In this document: piece by piece, positions 20,844 to 39,777 of the stretch
How positions within the stretch are numbered: position 1 is the first letter of the stretch
Layout of the letters: every line of letters begins with the position of its first letter
Source of the DNA: a virus
Direction: 5' to 3' (one strand)
DNA: 39,850 nt
Virus record (IMG/VR): IMGVR_UViG_3300028384_000683
Span: 1 to 39,850 of that record
Notes under the pieces: generated by a model
What the model was told of the DNA's origin: nothing
What the model saw: only the letters and a program-made list of their open reading frames with translations
Database searches by the model: none
Program-made: the position numbers and the translations under genes

Positions 20844-21496
20844 CGGTCAGACCAAATTATTTCCTTAAATTGCTCTTTTGGAAGCCCCCAAAACCGCTGC
20901 TTCCAGTCCGATTGCTCAAAAAATGGTAAATTTTTCCATTCTTTTTGTCTTGAAAGCATCTCATGAGCGCTAATATTCCATTGTTGACGGTCTAAAGATG
21001 TAACTATTTGTTCTACTTGGGTTTTTTTCTCCAGAACTGTCGGCAGATTGAAGTCATCCCACTCAAAATGTAACAGTTCAAAGCAGTTTTCGTGGTGATC
21101 GACGTAGTCTATCGAAATATCGACGCCCCATTTAGGTGCCATCTTGGTTAGTTTATGGAAAATAGGGTGTTTTTTGGCTATTTCGTGCAGTTGTTCCAGT
21201 GCATCACCTGCAAATCCGCGTCTTTGGTAGATATCACAGTGGTTAATATGCGCTTTTTCCCTGTCTTCATCAAGGTCTACCATCCAAACCTCCTTGTTTG
21301 TGAATTTTTCACGGTGTGGTTTGGGTTCATAGCCGTTCCATTGTGCATAAACTTGCTCAACACGACACATATCGTAGCCATTTTGATCAAACAGCTCGAT
21401 TCCTTGGTGAATGATTTGATCCATATACGCATCTGGCAATGGTTGTAGCCAGTAAGGTGATGGATCATGTTGGTTTTCTGTTATCTTAAGTTGCAT
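20840..21496 (-). CDS. hypothetical protein, 218 aa
   Basis: Aromatic, acidic soluble protein starting MQLKITENQHDPSPYWLQPLP, with NKEVWMVDLDEDREKAH in the middle, CFELLHFEWDDFNLPT, and an LPFFEQSDWKQRFWGLP end. No family or catalytic motif recognised. It overlaps the preceding membrane gene by 16 nt and ends within the promoter at 20815-20843. It is the last gene of the curli/cyclase run. Confidence 0.7.
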   Translation of the reverse strand: MQLKITENQHDPSPYWLQPLPDAYMDQIIHQGIELFDQNGYDMCRVEQVYAQWNGYEPKPHREKFTNKEVWMVDLDEDREKAHINHCDIYQRRGFAGDALEQLHEIAKKHPIFHKLTKMAPKWGVDISIDYVDHHENCFELLHFEWDDFNLPTVLEKKTQVEQIVTSLDRQQWNISAHEMLSRQKEWKNLPFFEQSDWKQRFWGLPKEQFKEIIWSDR

Positions 21497-21756
21497 TTTT
21501 GCTCTGCTCTATCTATAACTTGTAAATTACTGTATACTACAAATGATGCTACTGCTATTGGAAAGATCATTTCTCTATTTGAAATCATATCTTCTTCAAA
21601 TAAGATTTCAAATGGAGCTAAAAATATTGCCTTATGTAATAATATTCTGTCTCTGTGTGGTACTCTTGGCAGTAAAGGGTTTTGCTCAACAACACAATCA
21701 TACTTCATGCCTTCTACTGTAGTCCACACATCTGCTACATGCAGTGCATAAAACAA
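21481..21756 (-). CDS. small membrane protein (start unresolved)
   Basis: The C-terminal 90 or so residues are clearly protein-like: FYALHVADVWTTVEGMKYD, then EQNPLLPRVPHRDRILLHKA, a hydrophobic FLAPFEILFE, and FPIAVASFVVYSNLQV. The D..TT..G....E.NPLL pattern is that of small multi-helix membrane proteins (DUF5658-like). The only plausible start after the cyclase stop is TTG 21756. The frame continues open to ATG 22089 inside the cyclase catalytic domain (299-nt overlap) and there reads like a signal peptide. Which start is used cannot be told. Confidence 0.5.
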   Translation of the reverse strand: MFYALHVADVWTTVEGMKYDCVVEQNPLLPRVPHRDRILLHKAIFLAPFEILFEEDMISNREMIFPIAVASFVVYSNLQVIDRAEQKCNLR

Positions 21757-21790
21757 TATTTTTACTGAATCGTACGCCGGGTCACTAATA

Positions 21791-23617
21791 TCAGACAGTG
21801 TAAATGTCGATGAGTTCTTCCTTTCCTTTAACTTTAATGCGATCGACTTTATCGAAGCTTCGGCGTGTACTGCTTCCAGCAGTGAACTGTGATAGCAACA
21901 CTCGTACCCCATCGTAATTGCGAGTTTGGCCTTCGAGTCTAGCACCGAGGTTGACGGCATCTCCAATGACGGAATAGTCAAATCGAGTTTCTGATCCCAT
22001 GTTTCCGACGATGCAATCGCCGGTATTGATACCAATACCAACGTCAATGCGAGGTAAACCTTGTTCTTCCAGTTCTTTAATGAGTTCATCTGCTGCTTCG
22101 CTTATCTCTAACGCTGCATCTATTGCTTTGTCTGCATGATCTTCACATGGTAAAGGTGCATTCCAAAAAGCCATGATACAATCGCCCATGTACTTATCAA
22201 TAGTTCCACCATTATTTAGAATAATCTCAGTCATGCGACCAAGGTACATATTGATAAGTTCTACTAAACCTTCTGGATCATCATTGTTCTTATAATGTTC
22301 TGACACTGGAGTGAAGCCACATATATCCATGAATAGGAACGTCATATTCTTTCTTTCACCGCCGAGTTTAAGTAGTGAAGGGTCTTTCTGTAATAAATAA
22401 ACTTGACGAGGATCCAAGTACGTTTCGAACTGCTTTTTTATCATTTGTTTTTGTTGGTAAGTTATAAAGTACTTGTTAAAGGACGATTGAGCAAAAACAA
22501 CCAATGAACACAGAAACAATAGCGTTATATCGAAAAATAAGAGTTCTTGGTTCCACATCCAATACGATGTGCCAATCGCGCCTCCTATTACCATTAGAGA
22601 AGCTAACGCCGCTAGAGCTGTGGGAGCGACATAAACCAACCCCAAAATTACTAATCCAACTAACACCATTGAAAAGAGCTCAGCTACTTCAGACCAATCG
22701 GGAAGTTGTATTTGAACTCCTGAAAGCAAGGTATAAATCAGATGACCTTGAACTTCGTGGGGATGTCGTGCACCCGTGGGGGTTGGTACTGGATTAGATA
22801 ATCCTTCTGCTGTAACTCCAATAACAAAAGTCTTACCTTGTGCTTGATAGTCAGGCAAATCTAAAATACTAATCTGTTCAAACTTATTCCAAAAGCTGAT
22901 AGGCAGCTGCCCGTAACTATCTGTTACGATTGGATCTTGTCTTCCCATTCTAACCCATTCAATCCCATTGGGACCTACTTTCATTTGGTAACTGGGTTCT
23001 CCTGTATACACTCTGGCAGTATCAAGGGCAAGGGATGGATATTGAGATCCCCCTGCATTGACAACAAGAGGCGCTCGTCGCACGACTCCGGTGGGTTCAT
23101 CAGGAATAGCAACGGTGGCGCCAACGCCAAAAGCAACATTAGCAAGATTATCAATGGGATATAAAAGTCCCGTAAATTTATAGGTCCAATTTTCATTTTG
23201 TTCTCCGAATAGTGCTACTCCAACATGGGATCCAACTCCGTCACTGAGTTGAGATGATGGGGCCGATGACAAAACTGTAGCTTGCTGGTACAATGCCTCG
23301 GCAAGTTTCTGGTCTTGTCCAAACCTGTCTGGCTCGCTGAATAAGATGTTAAGTACGTAAAGATTACCAGGAGGAGCGGACCCGATATAGCCAGCAAGTA
23401 TATCCCTAGGCCAGGGCCACTGACCTTCTTTAGCAATCGCTTTTTCATCAATGTTAACCAGGACGATGTCCTCAACATTATTAACTTCCTTTTGATTTTG
23501 TAATAGATCGTAATAGTTGTACGAGAGACTTTGAATAAAGCCTGGATTATTTATTTGTAGTAAAGCGAAAAGTCCGATTGTTATTAGGACTGTCCACCAT
23601 TTAGTAAAATGATTCAT
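21791..23617 (-). CDS. CHASE2 sensor-class III adenylate cyclase
   Basis: 608 aa, membrane bound. One N-terminal TM (9-22) leads into an extracytoplasmic CHASE2 domain (about 30-300; DIVLVNIDEKAIAKEGQWPWPRD is typical), then three TMs (about 314-332, 334-354, 360-378), then a class III cyclase domain (424-608). Catalytic residues are complete: metal Asp D431 (FLFMDICGFT) and D479 (KYMGDCIMAF), adenine-reading K475 and D547, transition-state N556 and R560 (AVNLGARL). The K/D pair predicts cAMP rather than cGMP. CHASE2 cyclases are often paired with FecR-domain proteins in bacteria, and a FecR protein lies two genes upstream. Very unusual cargo for a phage. Start overlaps the curlin stop as ATGA. 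Confidence 0.93.
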   Translation of the reverse strand: MNHFTKWWTVLITIGLFALLQINNPGFIQSLSYNYYDLLQNQKEVNNVEDIVLVNIDEKAIAKEGQWPWPRDILAGYIGSAPPGNLYVLNILFSEPDRFGQDQKLAEALYQQATVLSSAPSSQLSDGVGSHVGVALFGEQNENWTYKFTGLLYPIDNLANVAFGVGATVAIPDEPTGVVRRAPLVVNAGGSQYPSLALDTARVYTGEPSYQMKVGPNGIEWVRMGRQDPIVTDSYGQLPISFWNKFEQISILDLPDYQAQGKTFVIGVTAEGLSNPVPTPTGARHPHEVQGHLIYTLLSGVQIQLPDWSEVAELFSMVLVGLVILGLVYVAPTALAALASLMVIGGAIGTSYWMWNQELLFFDITLLFLCSLVVFAQSSFNKYFITYQQKQMIKKQFETYLDPRQVYLLQKDPSLLKLGGERKNMTFLFMDICGFTPVSEHYKNNDDPEGLVELINMYLGRMTEIILNNGGTIDKYMGDCIMAFWNAPLPCEDHADKAIDAALEISEAADELIKELEEQGLPRIDVGIGINTGDCIVGNMGSETRFDYSVIGDAVNLGARLEGQTRNYDGVRVLLSQFTAGSSTRRSFDKVDRIKVKGKEELIDIYTV

Positions 23618-24267
23618 TGACCTTGAGTAACACTAACTGAACATCCAGCTGGATTCAAGCAAGTGTTTGTAATTGAATAACTCTGTGCTGTTGGTCCTTG
23701 TTGAAGGAGTTGTAATGTTGTAGCATAGTCGCCTTGTAATGTTACGGTTGCTGTATGAGCTCCTGTTCCTTTTTGTAATAAATCTACTTCTGCACTGTCT
23801 GTGGATCCATAATAATAAACTGTACTATACTTGTTACCAGAACCTTCTTGCCATACATCTGTAACTGTTGAGTCTGCATGAATGTCTAGGTATGTTTCAT
23901 GTTCACCAGATCCGTCTTGGTAAATGTTAACGTCATTATAGTTGCCCCATACATGAGCACCGTATGTACCATCGCCTTCTTGAAGAATGTCTATTGTGTT
24001 GTTTGTTCCGTCAACATCACCACCCCATCCTTTACCAGATCCCCACCAAGGAACCCAAGAGATAGTATTGTTGTTACCTTTCTGTTGAAGGTTAAATGTA
24101 TTATTGTTGTGATCTAAGGAAAACTGAATTAAGTTTCCATAACCATACTGGTCAATGTTTAACTGTAAGTTGTCTCCACCTGCTGTGGTAGCTTGTTCTA
24201 TGTGTACGTGATTGTCGCCAGCATATGCTGGGATAGCAAATAATGTTAATAATAAAAATAATCTCAT
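23614..24267 (-). CDS. curlin-repeat secreted protein (major-curlin-like)
   Basis: 217 aa. Signal peptide MRLFLLLTLFAIPAYAG, then about seven Q-x-G-x(2-3)-N-type repeats (QYGYGN, QKGNNN, QEGDGT, QDGSGE, QEGSGN, QKGTGA, QQGPTA) spaced about 20-30 residues, the amyloid-forming curlin pattern. A short Cys loop (CLNPAGC) lies near the C-terminus, as in the other curlin here. ATG 24267 has GGAGG eleven bases upstream. It would be exported through CsgG (26090-27004) and form a surface fibre. Confidence 0.85.
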   Translation of the reverse strand: MRLFLLLTLFAIPAYAGDNHVHIEQATTAGGDNLQLNIDQYGYGNLIQFSLDHNNNTFNLQQKGNNNTISWVPWWGSGKGWGGDVDGTNNTIDILQEGDGTYGAHVWGNYNDVNIYQDGSGEHETYLDIHADSTVTDVWQEGSGNKYSTVYYYGSTDSAEVDLLQKGTGAHTATVTLQGDYATTLQLLQQGPTAQSYSITNTCLNPAGCSVSVTQGQ

Positions 24268-24274
24268 GTTGTAT

Positions 24275-25414
24275 TTAGCCTCCTTGTTTAATTACAATGA
24301 TGCTATCTCCACCTTCGTTGAGCAAAATGGTACCTTCATACCCATCTACATTTGTTTCTAGTCTTACAGACGCATCAATAGAGAATGCTAATCTTATAAC
24401 ACCATTAACGTCTCTATAAAAGATTACATCGCTGTCTTGTTGAAAGATATTGTATTGTGAGTCTTTATTAAAACCAACAACAGCATTTGTCAATCTTAGT
24501 TCACCAACAGTATTGTCTAATCCTTGAGATCCAAGTTTCTCAGTTGTTCTTACAAGCTCCTCTATTACATCTAAAGCATCGACTAAGAAATCTACATCAA
24601 GAAAATCAATATCAAGTTCTGTAAATTCTAACTCTCCATTGTCTGCAAGGTAATCGGTTTCTAGTTCGTTAAACTCTAAGAAGTCTACATCAAGTATTCC
24701 TTGATCAGCGTCCATTTCATCTTGATACTCTTCTACCATATCCTGTTTTACTTCTGGCGGAGGAGATACGATAAACATATTATCAATCATACTTGCTGTA
24801 ATGTTTTGTATTGTTACTGGTGTCGTTGGTGGTGAGTCTATAGTTGATACAACTGTTGCTGCATATGCATCAGTCAATGTAACTTTACCGCCTTCGTTAA
24901 ACACATCTATTATTCCAGAAGGGTTACCAAATTCATCTGGAAGGAGAACAACCAATGATCGACCTAACTCGTCAATCGTTGTAGTGAAGTCTGTACCTCT
25001 TACTTGAATGGACGCAGTGGGGGTGCTAATGTCTATATTGTTTTTGTTAACCATTCCAAGTCTGCCAGAAGCAAATCTAGCAGTACCCAATGCCATGCGC
25101 ATTGTCATTTTAGACTTGGAAGGGTTAGGGTCGTAGTAGACCTTATCAATATAGACACGTGTGTGTTCAGTAAGAGAGAGTTCAGCTTTATCGAGAAACT
25201 CGATTAGCATACGACCATTGGTCGTCTCAGCTGTGTCGTTTAATTCTATGTTTGTTTGAAGTTGAGGCACCAAGACACTACCATCTCTAGTAAGAGAAGC
25301 ATTGCCTTTTAGCTCTCGGACATCCCCTATGGGCTCAGCATAGACTGCGCCCATTAGGAAAATAAGACTAGCTGTCGCTAGAACTGTCTTTTTGATTGAT
25401 CTGGATTGTTGCAT
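24275..25414 (-). CDS. FecR-domain periplasmic protein with acidic C-terminal repeat
   Basis: 379 aa. Signal peptide to about residue 26 (LATASLIFLMGAVYA). A FecR domain spans about 30-185: GNASLTRDGS, LNDTAETTNGRMLIEFLDKAELSL, then TPTASIQVRGTDFT and the 'VFNEGGKVTL' strand. Residues 225-290 are a Leu/Phe-Asp repeat (LDVDFLEFNELETDYL, ELDIDFLDVDFL). The end (VRLETNVDGYEGTILL) is beta-like. It starts inside the upstream curlin gene (47-nt overlap). Proteins of this type neighbour CHASE2 cyclases in bacteria and may feed them a signal; here the pair brackets a curlin gene. Confidence 0.85.
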   Translation of the reverse strand: MQQSRSIKKTVLATASLIFLMGAVYAEPIGDVRELKGNASLTRDGSVLVPQLQTNIELNDTAETTNGRMLIEFLDKAELSLTEHTRVYIDKVYYDPNPSKSKMTMRMALGTARFASGRLGMVNKNNIDISTPTASIQVRGTDFTTTIDELGRSLVVLLPDEFGNPSGIIDVFNEGGKVTLTDAYAATVVSTIDSPPTTPVTIQNITASMIDNMFIVSPPPEVKQDMVEEYQDEMDADQGILDVDFLEFNELETDYLADNGELEFTELDIDFLDVDFLVDALDVIEELVRTTEKLGSQGLDNTVGELRLTNAVVGFNKDSQYNIFQQDSDVIFYRDVNGVIRLAFSIDASVRLETNVDGYEGTILLNEGGDSIIVIKQGG

Positions 25415-26093
25415 TCTCTGAATCAATATCCAATGTGATAATACCGTTACAGGTTGTTATTCCTGTTGGGCAAGTACCACTAATCATGTTAATATCAATG
25501 TCAGCTGAATCACCTACGTGTGTTAGGTTGATTTCATGCTCCGCTCCGTCAGCCATATTCGTGTTGATGTTGTTTGAGTCTCCTGTAATATCGAAGTTCC
25601 AAACTGCATCGTCGACGTCTATGTCTACATCAAAAATATTGCTGTCGCCAATAACAGCTAAATCAAAATCTAATCTTTCTGCGCTCTGATTGTAACCTTG
25701 ATCGAAATCCATCTGGTTACTTGATCCAGTAATGTCAGAATTTATATCTGAGTCATTAGAGGAACCAATGTATCCAACGTTCCAATCCCAAATGTTACTG
25801 TCACCAGTAAATCCTAACACTATTGTTGAAGTGTCAGCATCGTATTCACCAAACAATACGTTCTCGTTACCGATCTGATCAATGTCGATATTCAAAGTTG
25901 TACCTGTAATAGGCATAGCTACAGAACCAGATGAAAAGTTAGTTTTTCCAATCTTGTTACCGTAACCGTATTGATCAATGTAAAGAGTCAATGTGTCACC
26001 AACTTGTTCAATGTTGATTTCATTATCGTCTGTTGCTTGAGCAAATACTGAAGATGTAGATATGATTAATAATAGGCCTAAAATATATTTCAT
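25368..26093 (-). CDS. second curlin-like secreted repeat protein
   Basis: 241 aa. Signal peptide MKYILGLLLIISTSSVFAQ. It shares with the other curlin the opening 'I-E-Q...L.L.IDQYGYGN' and adds DIDQIGNENV, then degenerate GDSN/GSSN repeats (TGDSNIWDW, IGDSNIFDV, TGDSNNINT) and ends IQINQKD. The composition is unusually rich in Asp, Asn and Ile. A CPTGITTC loop precedes the end. It may be the nucleator (CsgB-like) or a minor subunit; that division is inference. The start overlaps the csgG stop by 4 nt as ATGA. Confidence 0.75.
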   Translation of the reverse strand: MKYILGLLLIISTSSVFAQATDDNEINIEQVGDTLTLYIDQYGYGNKIGKTNFSSGSVAMPITGTTLNIDIDQIGNENVLFGEYDADTSTIVLGFTGDSNIWDWNVGYIGSSNDSDINSDITGSSNQMDFDQGYNQSAERLDFDLAVIGDSNIFDVDIDVDDAVWNFDITGDSNNINTNMADGAEHEINLTHVGDSADIDINMISGTCPTGITTCNGIITLDIDSENATIQINQKDSSSDS

Positions 26094-27004
26094 TCTTCTT
26101 CCTCGTTTTGATTCCAATCTATCTCCCAATAACCTCGACGGTTACCTTGATAGACTAATTCCAGTACTGCAGCCTCGATAGCTGTACGTACTGCATAAGT
26201 CACCGATTCATTATTACCAACACCATCTTCATATTCTATAAGTTGTGTACCTTGTTCTATAAAACGGAACACATCTCCTCCACTGCCATAGCTAAGGATG
26301 GATTTCTTAGCTTGGACATTTAGCAATACCTCACCTGTTAAAACAGAAACTGCTCTAACTGATACAGTTACGACATCTTGGGTGTATTGTTTTGAGAAAC
26401 CAATACCTAATGTACGTGCCCCTCTACCACCAGTTTGAATATTAGTATCGTAACCAATAATACCACCCTCTATAATCATTCCTGCGAATAGAAGTGGTCC
26501 AATGTTCTTTACTTCTGTTTCAAGTTCTCTTGCTGCTGCTTCTCTTCCAGATCTAATGATTTGTCTTTCTCTTACAAGAGCATCAATCCCTTGACGTTCT
26601 ACAACACGAAACCATTTACCCTCTCCTGCTGTCTTTAGTGCATCTATCAATAGTTCTGTACCACCTTGAGTAACAGCTGTACTAAATGATTGACCTCCAG
26701 GACTGTCTTTTCTTTGCCCTGTCTTATCCATGAAGTTATATACGGCAACCACTGGCATGTTCTTTGCCGGTGGTAAATTTAACAAGTCAATGTAGGCAGG
26801 TAGCTTTACTACCTCTGGTTGTTCAATACAAATTAAATTAGATGCGTAATATTTTCTTACGCCTGTATAGATATCTTTGCTCCATCCCTCATCAAACTGT
26901 CCTGTCTCATAAGCACAGTTGGCTGGTCCTTCGGACCATTGAGGCATAGAGGAACAACTTGCTAGTAGTAGAATACTAGCCGTCGTCAGAGCCGCCTTGA
27001 TCAT
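26090..27004 (-). CDS. csgG: CsgG-like curli export lipoprotein
   Basis: 304 aa. Lipoprotein signal with lipobox LLLAS-C17, followed by a Ser, consistent with outer-membrane sorting. The CsgG core is clear: MPVVAVYNFMDKTGQRK, GGTELLIDALKTAGEGKWFRVVERQG, IIRSGREAAAR, LLFAGMIIEGGIIGYDTN, RTLGIGF, then VRAVSVLTGEVLLNVQAKKSI and the C-terminal AIEAAVLELV helix. It forms the outer-membrane secretion pore for curlins. I choose ATG 27004 because GGAGG lies eight bases upstream; ATG 27010 or 27019 are alternatives. Confidence 0.95.
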   Translation of the reverse strand: MIKAALTTASILLLASCSSMPQWSEGPANCAYETGQFDEGWSKDIYTGVRKYYASNLICIEQPEVVKLPAYIDLLNLPPAKNMPVVAVYNFMDKTGQRKDSPGGQSFSTAVTQGGTELLIDALKTAGEGKWFRVVERQGIDALVRERQIIRSGREAAARELETEVKNIGPLLFAGMIIEGGIIGYDTNIQTGGRGARTLGIGFSKQYTQDVVTVSVRAVSVLTGEVLLNVQAKKSILSYGSGGDVFRFIEQGTQLIEYEDGVGNNESVTYAVRTAIEAAVLELVYQGNRRGYWEIDWNQNEEEE

Positions 27005-27488
27005 CGACATCGCCTCCATAATATCCAGTGCCTACTGGGATCTTAATAACTGTTTCTGAACCAAACTCATCAACAATTGTTAACTGAATAAAGTCAGGTT
27101 GTCCTTCTGCTCCTGTAATGATCTCCCATGTGATAACAGAACCTTCCATTTCGAAGGATCCAAATGTTGACGGATCGTCATTACTGAACATTGTGTCTAC
27201 TAATTGTTTAGCAAACTGAGCATAGATTCTGCTCTCTAGGTTTCGGATGAATTTTGCTAACGTCGAATTTTCTGCTTCTCTTTCCGCAGCTCTCCTTGCC
27301 GCATCCAATGCATCCTTGATTGCCTTCTCTCTTTGAAACTCTTGGTTCTCAATTGTTAAATAATGAGCACCAGTCCCCACGCCACTGAAGCTAGGGTTTT
27401 TAAACTTGTGAACAATGTCTGCATTAACGATCATTGGAAAAGCCATTAAGGCTGATACAAACATTCCAAACGCAAACGCTTTCATCAT
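26976..27488 (-). CDS. csgF: CsgF-like curli assembly factor
   Basis: 170 aa. Signal peptide (MMKAFAFGMFVSALMAFPMIVNA), then the CsgF N-terminal motif FKNPSFSGVGTGAHYLTIENQE that in E. coli inserts into the CsgG pore, followed by a helix (EKAIKDALDAARRAAERE) and a beta domain (GSVITWEIITG, FIQLTIVDEFG). It anchors and nucleates fibres at the cell surface. No CsgE or CsgD is present. Start ATG 27488 lies five nt after the upstream stop; the frame extending to 27554 is run-over. Confidence 0.88.
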   Translation of the reverse strand: MMKAFAFGMFVSALMAFPMIVNADIVHKFKNPSFSGVGTGAHYLTIENQEFQREKAIKDALDAARRAAEREAENSTLAKFIRNLESRIYAQFAKQLVDTMFSNDDPSTFGSFEMEGSVITWEIITGAEGQPDFIQLTIVDEFGSETVIKIPVGTGYYGGDVDDQGGSDDG

Positions 27489-27492
27489 ATCT

Positions 27493-27780
27493 TTACTTGT
27501 CCAAATCTGAGGACCCATTTGATCCTTCAATATCTTTCTTTCGCTCTTTGTCATTCTTATACCTCAACACAACATTAACCTTTTGTTGTAATCTTATTAA
27601 GTCTTGATCTAACATTCTATTTTGATCAATAACTTTTATTAGAGCCAAATGCATTTCTTCAATTGCTGGCTCTAGTTTATTACCCACAAACCACCATATG
27701 TAGTAAATGAAATAACCCATACCGATTGACATAACAACTGGAAGACCAAATTCATTTATAAGAACTGCAATATCTTCCAT
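27493..27780 (-). CDS. small TM plus coiled-coil protein, 95 aa
   Basis: ATG 27780 follows AAGGAGAGATTG and overlaps the previous stop as TGATG. One N-terminal TM (VVMSIGMGYFIYYIWWFV, about 14-33), then a coiled coil (IEEMHLALIKVIDQNRML...LQQKVNVVL) and a polar tail. The layout resembles UviB/BhlA-like holin-type proteins, but it sits directly upstream of csgF, so a curli-linked role is equally possible. Confidence 0.7.
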   Translation of the reverse strand: MEDIAVLINEFGLPVVMSIGMGYFIYYIWWFVGNKLEPAIEEMHLALIKVIDQNRMLDQDLIRLQQKVNVVLRYKNDKERKKDIEGSNGSSDLDK

Positions 27781-28073
27781 CAATCTCTCCTTGCGTCAAT
27801 TGAACCATCTTCGATAAAGTTTTCAGCTCTAGCAATCCTGTTAACATCAGGCGGTAAGTCTAGCGACTGGGAAACCAAAGTATCGATCTTGATCAACTCG
27901 TTGTTCATGGTTCTAGCTCTTGTCTCGAGCATAGTACAAAACGTAGTCAAGGTTTTGAGATCATCAACCAAGCCATCTAATATTTGTTTAAGTACGATGA
28001 ATATGAAGATTCCCATCACGACGGCTGCCGCAATCGAGGTCCCCACATCTCGAATCAGTTCAAAAGCGTCCAT
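27780..28073 (-). CDS. small TM plus coiled-coil protein, 97 aa
   Basis: Sister in layout to the next gene: one TM at about 13-31 (SIAAAVVMGIFIFIVLKQI), then a helical coiled segment (LVDDLKTLTTFCTMLETRARTMNNELIKIDTL). It starts five bases after a CCTAAATA late-like box, with no Shine-Dalgarno. It may head the curli run. Function unknown. Confidence 0.65.
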   Translation of the reverse strand: MDAFELIRDVGTSIAAAVVMGIFIFIVLKQILDGLVDDLKTLTTFCTMLETRARTMNNELIKIDTLVSQSLDLPPDVNRIARAENFIEDGSIDARRD

Positions 28074-34586: not shown

Positions 34587-34663
34587 TGGCCCGCCCTTCA
34601 GGACTCGAACCTGAAACCTACGGCTTAGAAGGCCGTTGCTCTATCCAGTTGAGCTAAGGGCGG
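34587..34663 (-). tRNA. tRNA-Arg (TCT)
   Basis: Acceptor CCGCCCT/AGGGCGG pairs fully; D-arm GCTC...GAGC; anticodon stem ACGGC/GCCGT with loop CTTCTAA (anticodon TCT); T-arm TCAGG-TTCGAGT-CCTGA; discriminator G and encoded CCA. Decodes AGA/AGG, codons favoured by this AT-rich genome. Confidence 0.95.
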
Positions 34664-34671
34664 ATAACTAG

Positions 34672-34747
34672 TGGTGCTGACTGAGGGAATCGAACCCCCA
34701 ACCTGAGCTTTACAAAAGCCCTGCTCTACCTATTGAGCTAAGTCAGC
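34672..34747 (-). tRNA. tRNA-Thr (TGT)
   Basis: Acceptor GCTGACT/AGTCAGC; anticodon stem GGGCT/AGCTC (one G-T) with loop TTTGTAA (anticodon TGT); T-loop GGTTCGATT; discriminator A and encoded CCA. Its 5' end overlaps the last 18 nt of the upstream coding gene. Confidence 0.93.
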
Positions 34748-39700: not shown

Positions 39701-39777
39701 TGGTAGCCCGTCCCGGATTCGAACCGAGGTTGCATGGATGAAAACCATGTGTCCTGACCTGACTAGACGAACGGGCC
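39701..39777 (-). tRNA. tRNA-Glu (TTC)
   Basis: Acceptor GGCCCGT/ACGGGCT (first pair G-T), D-arm region CGTCTAGTCAGGTCAGGACAC typical of Glu, anticodon stem CATGG/CCATG with loop TTTTCAT (anticodon TTC), T-loop GGTTCGAAT, discriminator A and encoded CCA. Confidence 0.93.

Follow-up and report, generated by a model that had tools for sequence, protein, structure and literature searches.

The window analyzed here, a complete 39.85-kb virus record of IMG/VR (IMGVR_UViG_3300028384_000683, positions 1 to 39,850) that is probably a genome fragment, carries on its minus strand, from position 28073 to 21481, nine genes in a single tight run, which were recognized from the sequence and from profile matches. 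The genes follow each other in the order small gene A, small gene B, csgF, csgG, curlin 1, FecR, curlin 2, CHASE2 cyclase and a DUF5658-like gene. We interpret the run as a curli (type VIII secretion) module of T4-like phages of the SAR11/OM43 type, in which fibre export would be combined with FecR/CHASE2 sensing and a cyclic AMP (cAMP) signal to the host, and put the probability of this interpretation at about 0.6. At the level of sequence, the analysis establishes the gene content, a conserved gene order, an intact protein of the CsgG family, intact cyclase residues, signal peptides (assigned by inspection) and the overprinting of a ninth gene on that of the cyclase. The features of the run are as follows (lengths in amino acids, aa, or nucleotides, nt; TM, transmembrane):

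27780..28073, minus strand: small protein A, 97 aa, N-terminal TM helix and coiled coil, paralogue of B (phrog_18771, E 2e-21)
27493..27783, minus strand: small protein B, 96 aa, N-terminal TM helix (GLPVVMSIGMGYFIYYIWWFV) and coiled coil (phrog_18771, E 5e-24)
26976..27554, minus strand: csgF, secreted curli chaperone (PF10614, E 7.8e-12, over the cut-off; phrog_35372, E 1e-33)
26090..27019, minus strand: csgG, outer-membrane curli export lipoprotein with lipobox LASC (PF03783, E 4.1e-53)
25368..26129, minus strand: curlin 1, signal peptide and curlin-type repeats, C-terminal IQINQKD (PF07012, E 0.0016, below the Pfam cut-off)
24275..25426, minus strand: FecR-domain secreted protein with signal peptide, FecR beta domain, acidic linker and C-terminal beta domain ending IIVIKQGG (PF04773, E 1.3e-8)
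23614..24267, minus strand: curlin 2 (PF07012, E 1.3e-5, above the cut-off; NCBIfam CsgA model, E 5.7e-8, below its cut-off)
21791..23617, minus strand: CHASE2-TM-class III adenylate cyclase, 608 aa (PF05226, E 1.9e-35; PF00211, Guanylate_cyc, E 2.7e-19; phrog_35576, E 2e-182)
21481..22089, minus strand: ninth gene, signal peptide, linker and DUF5658-like 3-TM domain, its first ~299 nt within the cyclase gene in the +1 frame
21791..22089, minus strand: dual-coding stretch, cyclase catalytic C-terminus and DUF5658-like N-terminus, +1 frame without stops over cyclase codons 529-608

As can be seen, the single-strand arrangement of csgF, csgG, two curlins with FecR between them and a CHASE2 cyclase, proposed in a preliminary description of this DNA that was made from the sequence alone, has profile matches for all of its members. 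The tightness of the run stands as well, and the overlaps of 4-47 nt given there change with the choice of start codons: with the longest open reading frames (ORFs), neighbours from small gene A through the cyclase overlap by 4, 62, 44, 40, 59, -7 and 4 nt, the FecR/curlin 2 pair being separated by a 7-nt gap. The region delimited in the preliminary description started at 21481 and thus already spanned the ninth, DUF5658-like ORF, which was left unnamed.

The composition of the module is not new, contrary to the preliminary statement that no such system had been described, and the window adds one more member to a phage module that was already known. The csgF/csgG cluster was reported in pelagimyophages (PMC7029224) and discussed in phage Melnitz (PMC9004378), and Wittmers et al. 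2022 (PMC9599517) described the full module, histidine kinase (HK)-CsgF-CsgG-CsgA/B-FecR-CsgA/B-adenylate cyclase (AC), in podo- and myo-pelagiphages (SAR11 viruses), noting that it lacks CsgE and CsgD, has alphaproteobacterial affinity and is expressed in metatranscriptomes. The window likewise has small gene(s), CsgF, CsgG, curlin, FecR, curlin and cyclase on one strand in the same order, likewise lacks CsgE, and belongs with marine phages of the SAR11/OM43 type. What we add is the overlapping ninth gene, a bacterial counterpart of the module, a curlin-like tail on FecR, the relabelling of the upstream "histidine kinases" as TM/coiled-coil proteins and the lack of PF00027 in 12 phage records. 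DUF5658 and CHASE2 are unmentioned in the main text of PMC9599517, where no mention of the overlap or of the FecR tail was found either; no paper mentioning DUF5658 was found in the literature searched, which does not in itself prove novelty.

Relatives were recruited in two separate searches, by cyclase and by CsgG, neither of which favours loci with the DUF5658-like gene. Among CsgG-recruited loci with at least 6.5 kb of downstream sequence, 45/45 contain two curlins, FecR and cyclase; reciprocally, CsgG, CsgF, FecR, curlin and the small genes were found in 43/43 loci that were recruited by the cyclase and extend at least 6.5 kb upstream of it. The order in isolates HTVC008M and Melnitz is identical to that of the window. 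The FecR and cyclase genes are therefore no one-off insertion, as the preliminary description had allowed they could be, and the link between them and the export genes is real.

The ninth gene is overprinted on the part of the cyclase gene that encodes the catalytic domain, its product being predicted. Among 129 loci in which the cyclase gene includes its stop codon, a DUF5658-like ORF follows directly in 109, starting 290-371 nt inside the cyclase gene in 90 loci (Dlong, the type of the window) and 17-29 nt inside it in 19 (Dshort). Pfam supports the DUF5658 assignment for 17/26 aligned members (best E 6.7e-6); the match of the window's own protein (E 0.004) is below the cut-off. The domain was modelled with high confidence as three helices, presumably transmembrane, for which Foldseek returned no match at E<=0.001. 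Over cyclase codons 529-608, the +1 frame of 72 distinct Dlong sequences contains 0 stops, against an expectation of 391 from resampling codons with the protein sequence held constant; the 16 distinct sequences from loci that lack the ninth gene have 75 stops in this frame, versus 104 expected. These totals are alignment-based, an earlier motif-anchored count per locus having been misplaced in some loci, and a DUF5658-seeded viral scan, biased by its use of overlap peptides, was kept out of the test.

One can suppose that the 5′ extension of the DUF5658-like ORF results incidentally from the codons used by the cyclase and that the true start lies at or after the cyclase stop. Indeed, amino-acid conservation of the extension partly mirrors that of the cyclase, and its N-terminal hydropathy, which is not decisive alone, is only modestly above the synonymous null (mean P about 0.16). 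We consider this very unlikely, however, given the stop counts above and the fact that, in each of nine Dlong loci, the frame was open in 0/300 resampled sequences. Moreover, three of the loci without the ninth gene (L108, L146 and L148) nest among gene-bearing loci in the cyclase tree (44 clusters at 82% identity) and have a +1-frame stop 21 nt before the cyclase stop, as expected if constraint ends on gene loss. A Shine-Dalgarno-like motif precedes the internal start in 44/57 cases (27 with the core motif), more closely resembling the situation at csgF/csgG than at FecR/cyclase; the predicted N-terminus is signal-peptide-like, with a fitting c-region in 63/72; and Dshort proteins independently carry a signal peptide of their own, with ~100 aa ahead of the domain. 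Ratios of observed to expected synonymous change in the overlap (0.89, 0.69, 0.62 and 0.83, versus 0.84-1.09 without the gene) are supportive only, because cyclase codons 265-336, outside the overlap, are also low. We consider a programmed frameshift yielding a cyclase-DUF5658 fusion less likely, since the internal start, the Shine-Dalgarno-like motif and the signal peptide favour separate initiation. Because an overlapping gene is conserved within the cyclase gene, earlier gene lists of the module are probably incomplete, and the ninth gene is a specific, testable component of it.

This second region of low synonymous change (cyclase codons ~265-360, window ~22540-22825) is also, over part of its length, poorer in stops than expected in two other frames, +2 and antisense -1. 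It may stem from recombination, from codon use or from a further overlapping ORF.

The FecR-domain protein was modelled with AlphaFold2 (AF2), rows from annotated phage records being left out of the alignment. The model (mean pLDDT, the predicted local distance difference test score, of 67) shows a FecR/PupR-type beta domain joined to a C-terminal beta domain by an acidic linker of low confidence, and Foldseek matched it to 4m0h and 6ovk (E about 1e-3). The short N-terminus ahead of the FecR domain resembles a signal peptide; PF04773 was the only Pfam match in the window protein, with none to a cytoplasmic sigma-binding/anti-sigma N-terminal domain. Since that cytoplasmic part is lacking, "iron-dependent regulator" is an unsafe name for it. 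A curlin-like strand, phi-x-phi-x-Q, lies at the C-terminus of 90/90 distinct phage FecR proteins. The same terminal motif is found in 89/89 distinct curlin 1 and 74/88 distinct curlin 2 proteins and in 0/87 CsgF, 0/94 CsgG and 0/99 cyclases; at internal FecR positions its frequency is 3%. We infer from this curlin-like terminal strand that phage FecR may contact the fibre or travel with it.

PMC9599517 states that FecR and cyclase do not belong to bacterial curli operons. However, Hyphomonas sp. TMED17, a metagenome-assembled genome (MAG), contains csgF-csgG-curlin-FecR-CHASE2 cyclase (locus L168, 9363-15386) on a 705-kb contig with chromosomal-type flanks, with profile E-values of 8e-60 for FecR and 2e-192 for the cyclase. 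It is the one locus with the FecR-cyclase pair among the bacterial curli loci closest to phage CsgG (L168-L242). The locus shares with the phage module its single strand, its order and the lack of CsgE, and its cyclase ends in ..DWDGVFKMTTK, as in Melnitz and Dshort phages. It differs in that a single long curlin (504 aa) stands in place of two, the small TM pair and the DUF5658-like gene are missing and the FecR protein has no curlin-like tail. We searched for this type of FecR in samples of 385 genomes of the class, 105 of the family, 398 of the order and 398 of the phylum, and only TMED17 gave a comparable score (in the class sample, 204 bits, the next-best FecR reaching 121); a wider bacterial distribution could therefore not be shown. 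Most likely, the phage module was derived from an alphaproteobacterial csgF-csgG-curlin-FecR-CHASE2-cyclase operon, and the bacterial counterpart suggests an origin for the FecR-cyclase link. In Sinorhizobium meliloti CyaD1-SMc02177-Clr, a FecR-domain gene is also located near a CHASE2 receptor cyclase, but that system has its own cAMP receptor, Clr, and no curli genes, and its FecR-domain protein SMc02177 is not needed for signal perception (PMC5498481).

The export genes themselves share with E. coli curli (csgBAC/csgDEFG) the CsgG pore, CsgF and curlin-repeat subunits, and differ in the lack of CsgE, the added FecR and cyclase and another gene order. The CsgG profile of the window matches solved CsgG (3x2r/4uv3, E 2e-68), and the repeats of curlin 1 are visible in the family alignment. 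For Melnitz L003, the record (MZ577097.1) annotates two curlin-repeat proteins in the cluster, while PMC9004378 says that csgA/csgB are absent.

The two small proteins, paralogues that both match phrog_18771 and each have one TM helix and a coiled coil, precede csgF wherever a related locus extends far enough upstream and are 83-135 aa long in the window and its relatives. They are probably the genes named histidine kinases in PMC9599517, a label that the sequences do not support: no Pfam match to a kinase family was found in the small proteins or their relatives, histidine is absent from 82/159 distinct sequences, and the best histidine column has 8/21. Pfam matches of the family are weak or at chance level, the best being YvrJ-like (E 0.1, 3/21 members). 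Nothing points to the CsgE-like role implied when these proteins were placed, in the preliminary description, at the site of an export partner.

In the mechanism that we favour, CsgG and CsgF would form an outer-membrane pore in the infected cell, through which curlin 1 and curlin 2 would be exported as fibres. The FecR-domain protein, with its curlin-like tail, would be carried with the fibre or pore or cap it; the periplasmic CHASE2 domain would read FecR or the state of the envelope, and the cyclase would make cAMP for a host receptor, the small TM/coiled-coil proteins and the DUF5658-like protein being putative inner-membrane accessories. What the phage would probably gain is an altered surface of the infected cell, which would aggregate or keep out other phages, with feedback from export. 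Such fibre-export genes are found in viruses of the most abundant ocean bacteria but not in the bacteria themselves. In a more specific form, the module would be a self-monitoring fibre machine: tailed FecR would be exported with the fibre or cap it, the CHASE2 cyclase would sense export through the amount of FecR in the periplasm, and another inner-membrane protein, the third, would start ~300 nt inside the cyclase gene, with dual coding over active-site codons in most of the family. Taken as a whole, this form is rather unlikely, but the FecR tail makes a concrete hypothesis of how fibre export could be sensed.

The cyclase of the window aligns with solved class III adenylate cyclases, with the two metal-binding Asp and the Lys, Asn and Arg all present, and the transition-state Asn is kept in 90/90 Dlong loci. 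Several observations nevertheless weigh against a fibre-exporting and signalling module. The same Asn is replaced by Ser in 20 loci (19 Dshort, L019 and L084 among them, and Melnitz), whose cyclases also have a C-terminal extension ending W-D/N-G-x-F-I-A-T-T-K; because of this substitution, cyclase output in Dshort phages and Melnitz may be weak or absent. A cyclic nucleotide (cNMP)-binding domain, PF00027, was found in none of 12 phage records, several of them genome-sized and some of them fragments that could hide one, while 10/14 control genomes were positive. Since the phages lack this domain, cAMP, if made, would probably act on host proteins, and the "complete sense-and-signal module" of the preliminary description is reduced accordingly: the curli-export unit is joined to FecR and a CHASE2 cyclase with intact catalytic residues, but "complete" overstates the case. 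As that description had also claimed, CsgE is missing; it was found neither in the window nor in 11 related phage records (an E. coli control was positive; no search was aimed at CsgD), nor, by the same search, in the TMED17 genome. CsgE is the periplasmic gate in E. coli and is not present in all curli systems, and CsgD is a regulator of gammaproteobacterial curli systems. To our knowledge, neither fibres nor cAMP have been assayed for this module. Clumping was not observed in Melnitz-infected cultures (PMC9004378).

The lack of a CsgE gate also suits another reading, proposed for Melnitz (PMC9004378), in which the CsgG/CsgF pore is repurposed for timing of lysis (pinholin-like or gated). The small TM proteins would then be its holin-like partners, and the curlins and FecR would plug or gate the pore instead of making fibres. 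Two small TM genes stand before csgF in every judged locus, and their weak YvrJ-like matches point in the same direction. That paper assumed, however, that curlin genes are absent, which the Melnitz record contradicts, and a pore alone does not explain why every judged locus has retained two curlins along with FecR and the cyclase; we regard this reading as unlikely. The FecR domain, together with the open-pore reasoning of PMC9599517, can alternatively be taken to mean that CsgG is an open import pore and that FecR/CHASE2 report nutrient (e.g., iron) status, making the module a sensor of uptake or envelope stress. This appears distinctly improbable, since FecR is secreted and has no cytoplasmic sigma-binding part like that of the iron regulator, neither csgF nor the two fibre-subunit genes would be accounted for, and the module has no TonB-type receptor.

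Elsewhere in the window, genes for tRNA-Arg(tct), tRNA-Thr(tgt) and tRNA-Glu(ttc) are located at 34587-34747 and 39701-39777. An Rfam search of the window retrieved tRNAs only and no riboswitch such as the one reported for Melnitz. In a scan for late promoters, the ATAAATA motif was observed 9 times versus 10.9 expected, a count close to expectation and therefore uninformative about the timing of expression. The phage-type module was also found on contigs assigned to MAGs of Flavobacteriales, Rhodobacteraceae, Sphingobacteriales and Saprospirales (L163-L167); given the phage-type module that they carry, these are probably mis-binned phage contigs. Phage genes of the window include a T4-gp32-like ssb, a tape-measure-like protein, an exonuclease and others. 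The module lies ~19 kb from the ssb gene (window 1774-28073), while in HTVC008M and Melnitz it is 1-2 kb from ssb; since this distance differs between phages, the module has moved within a variable region.

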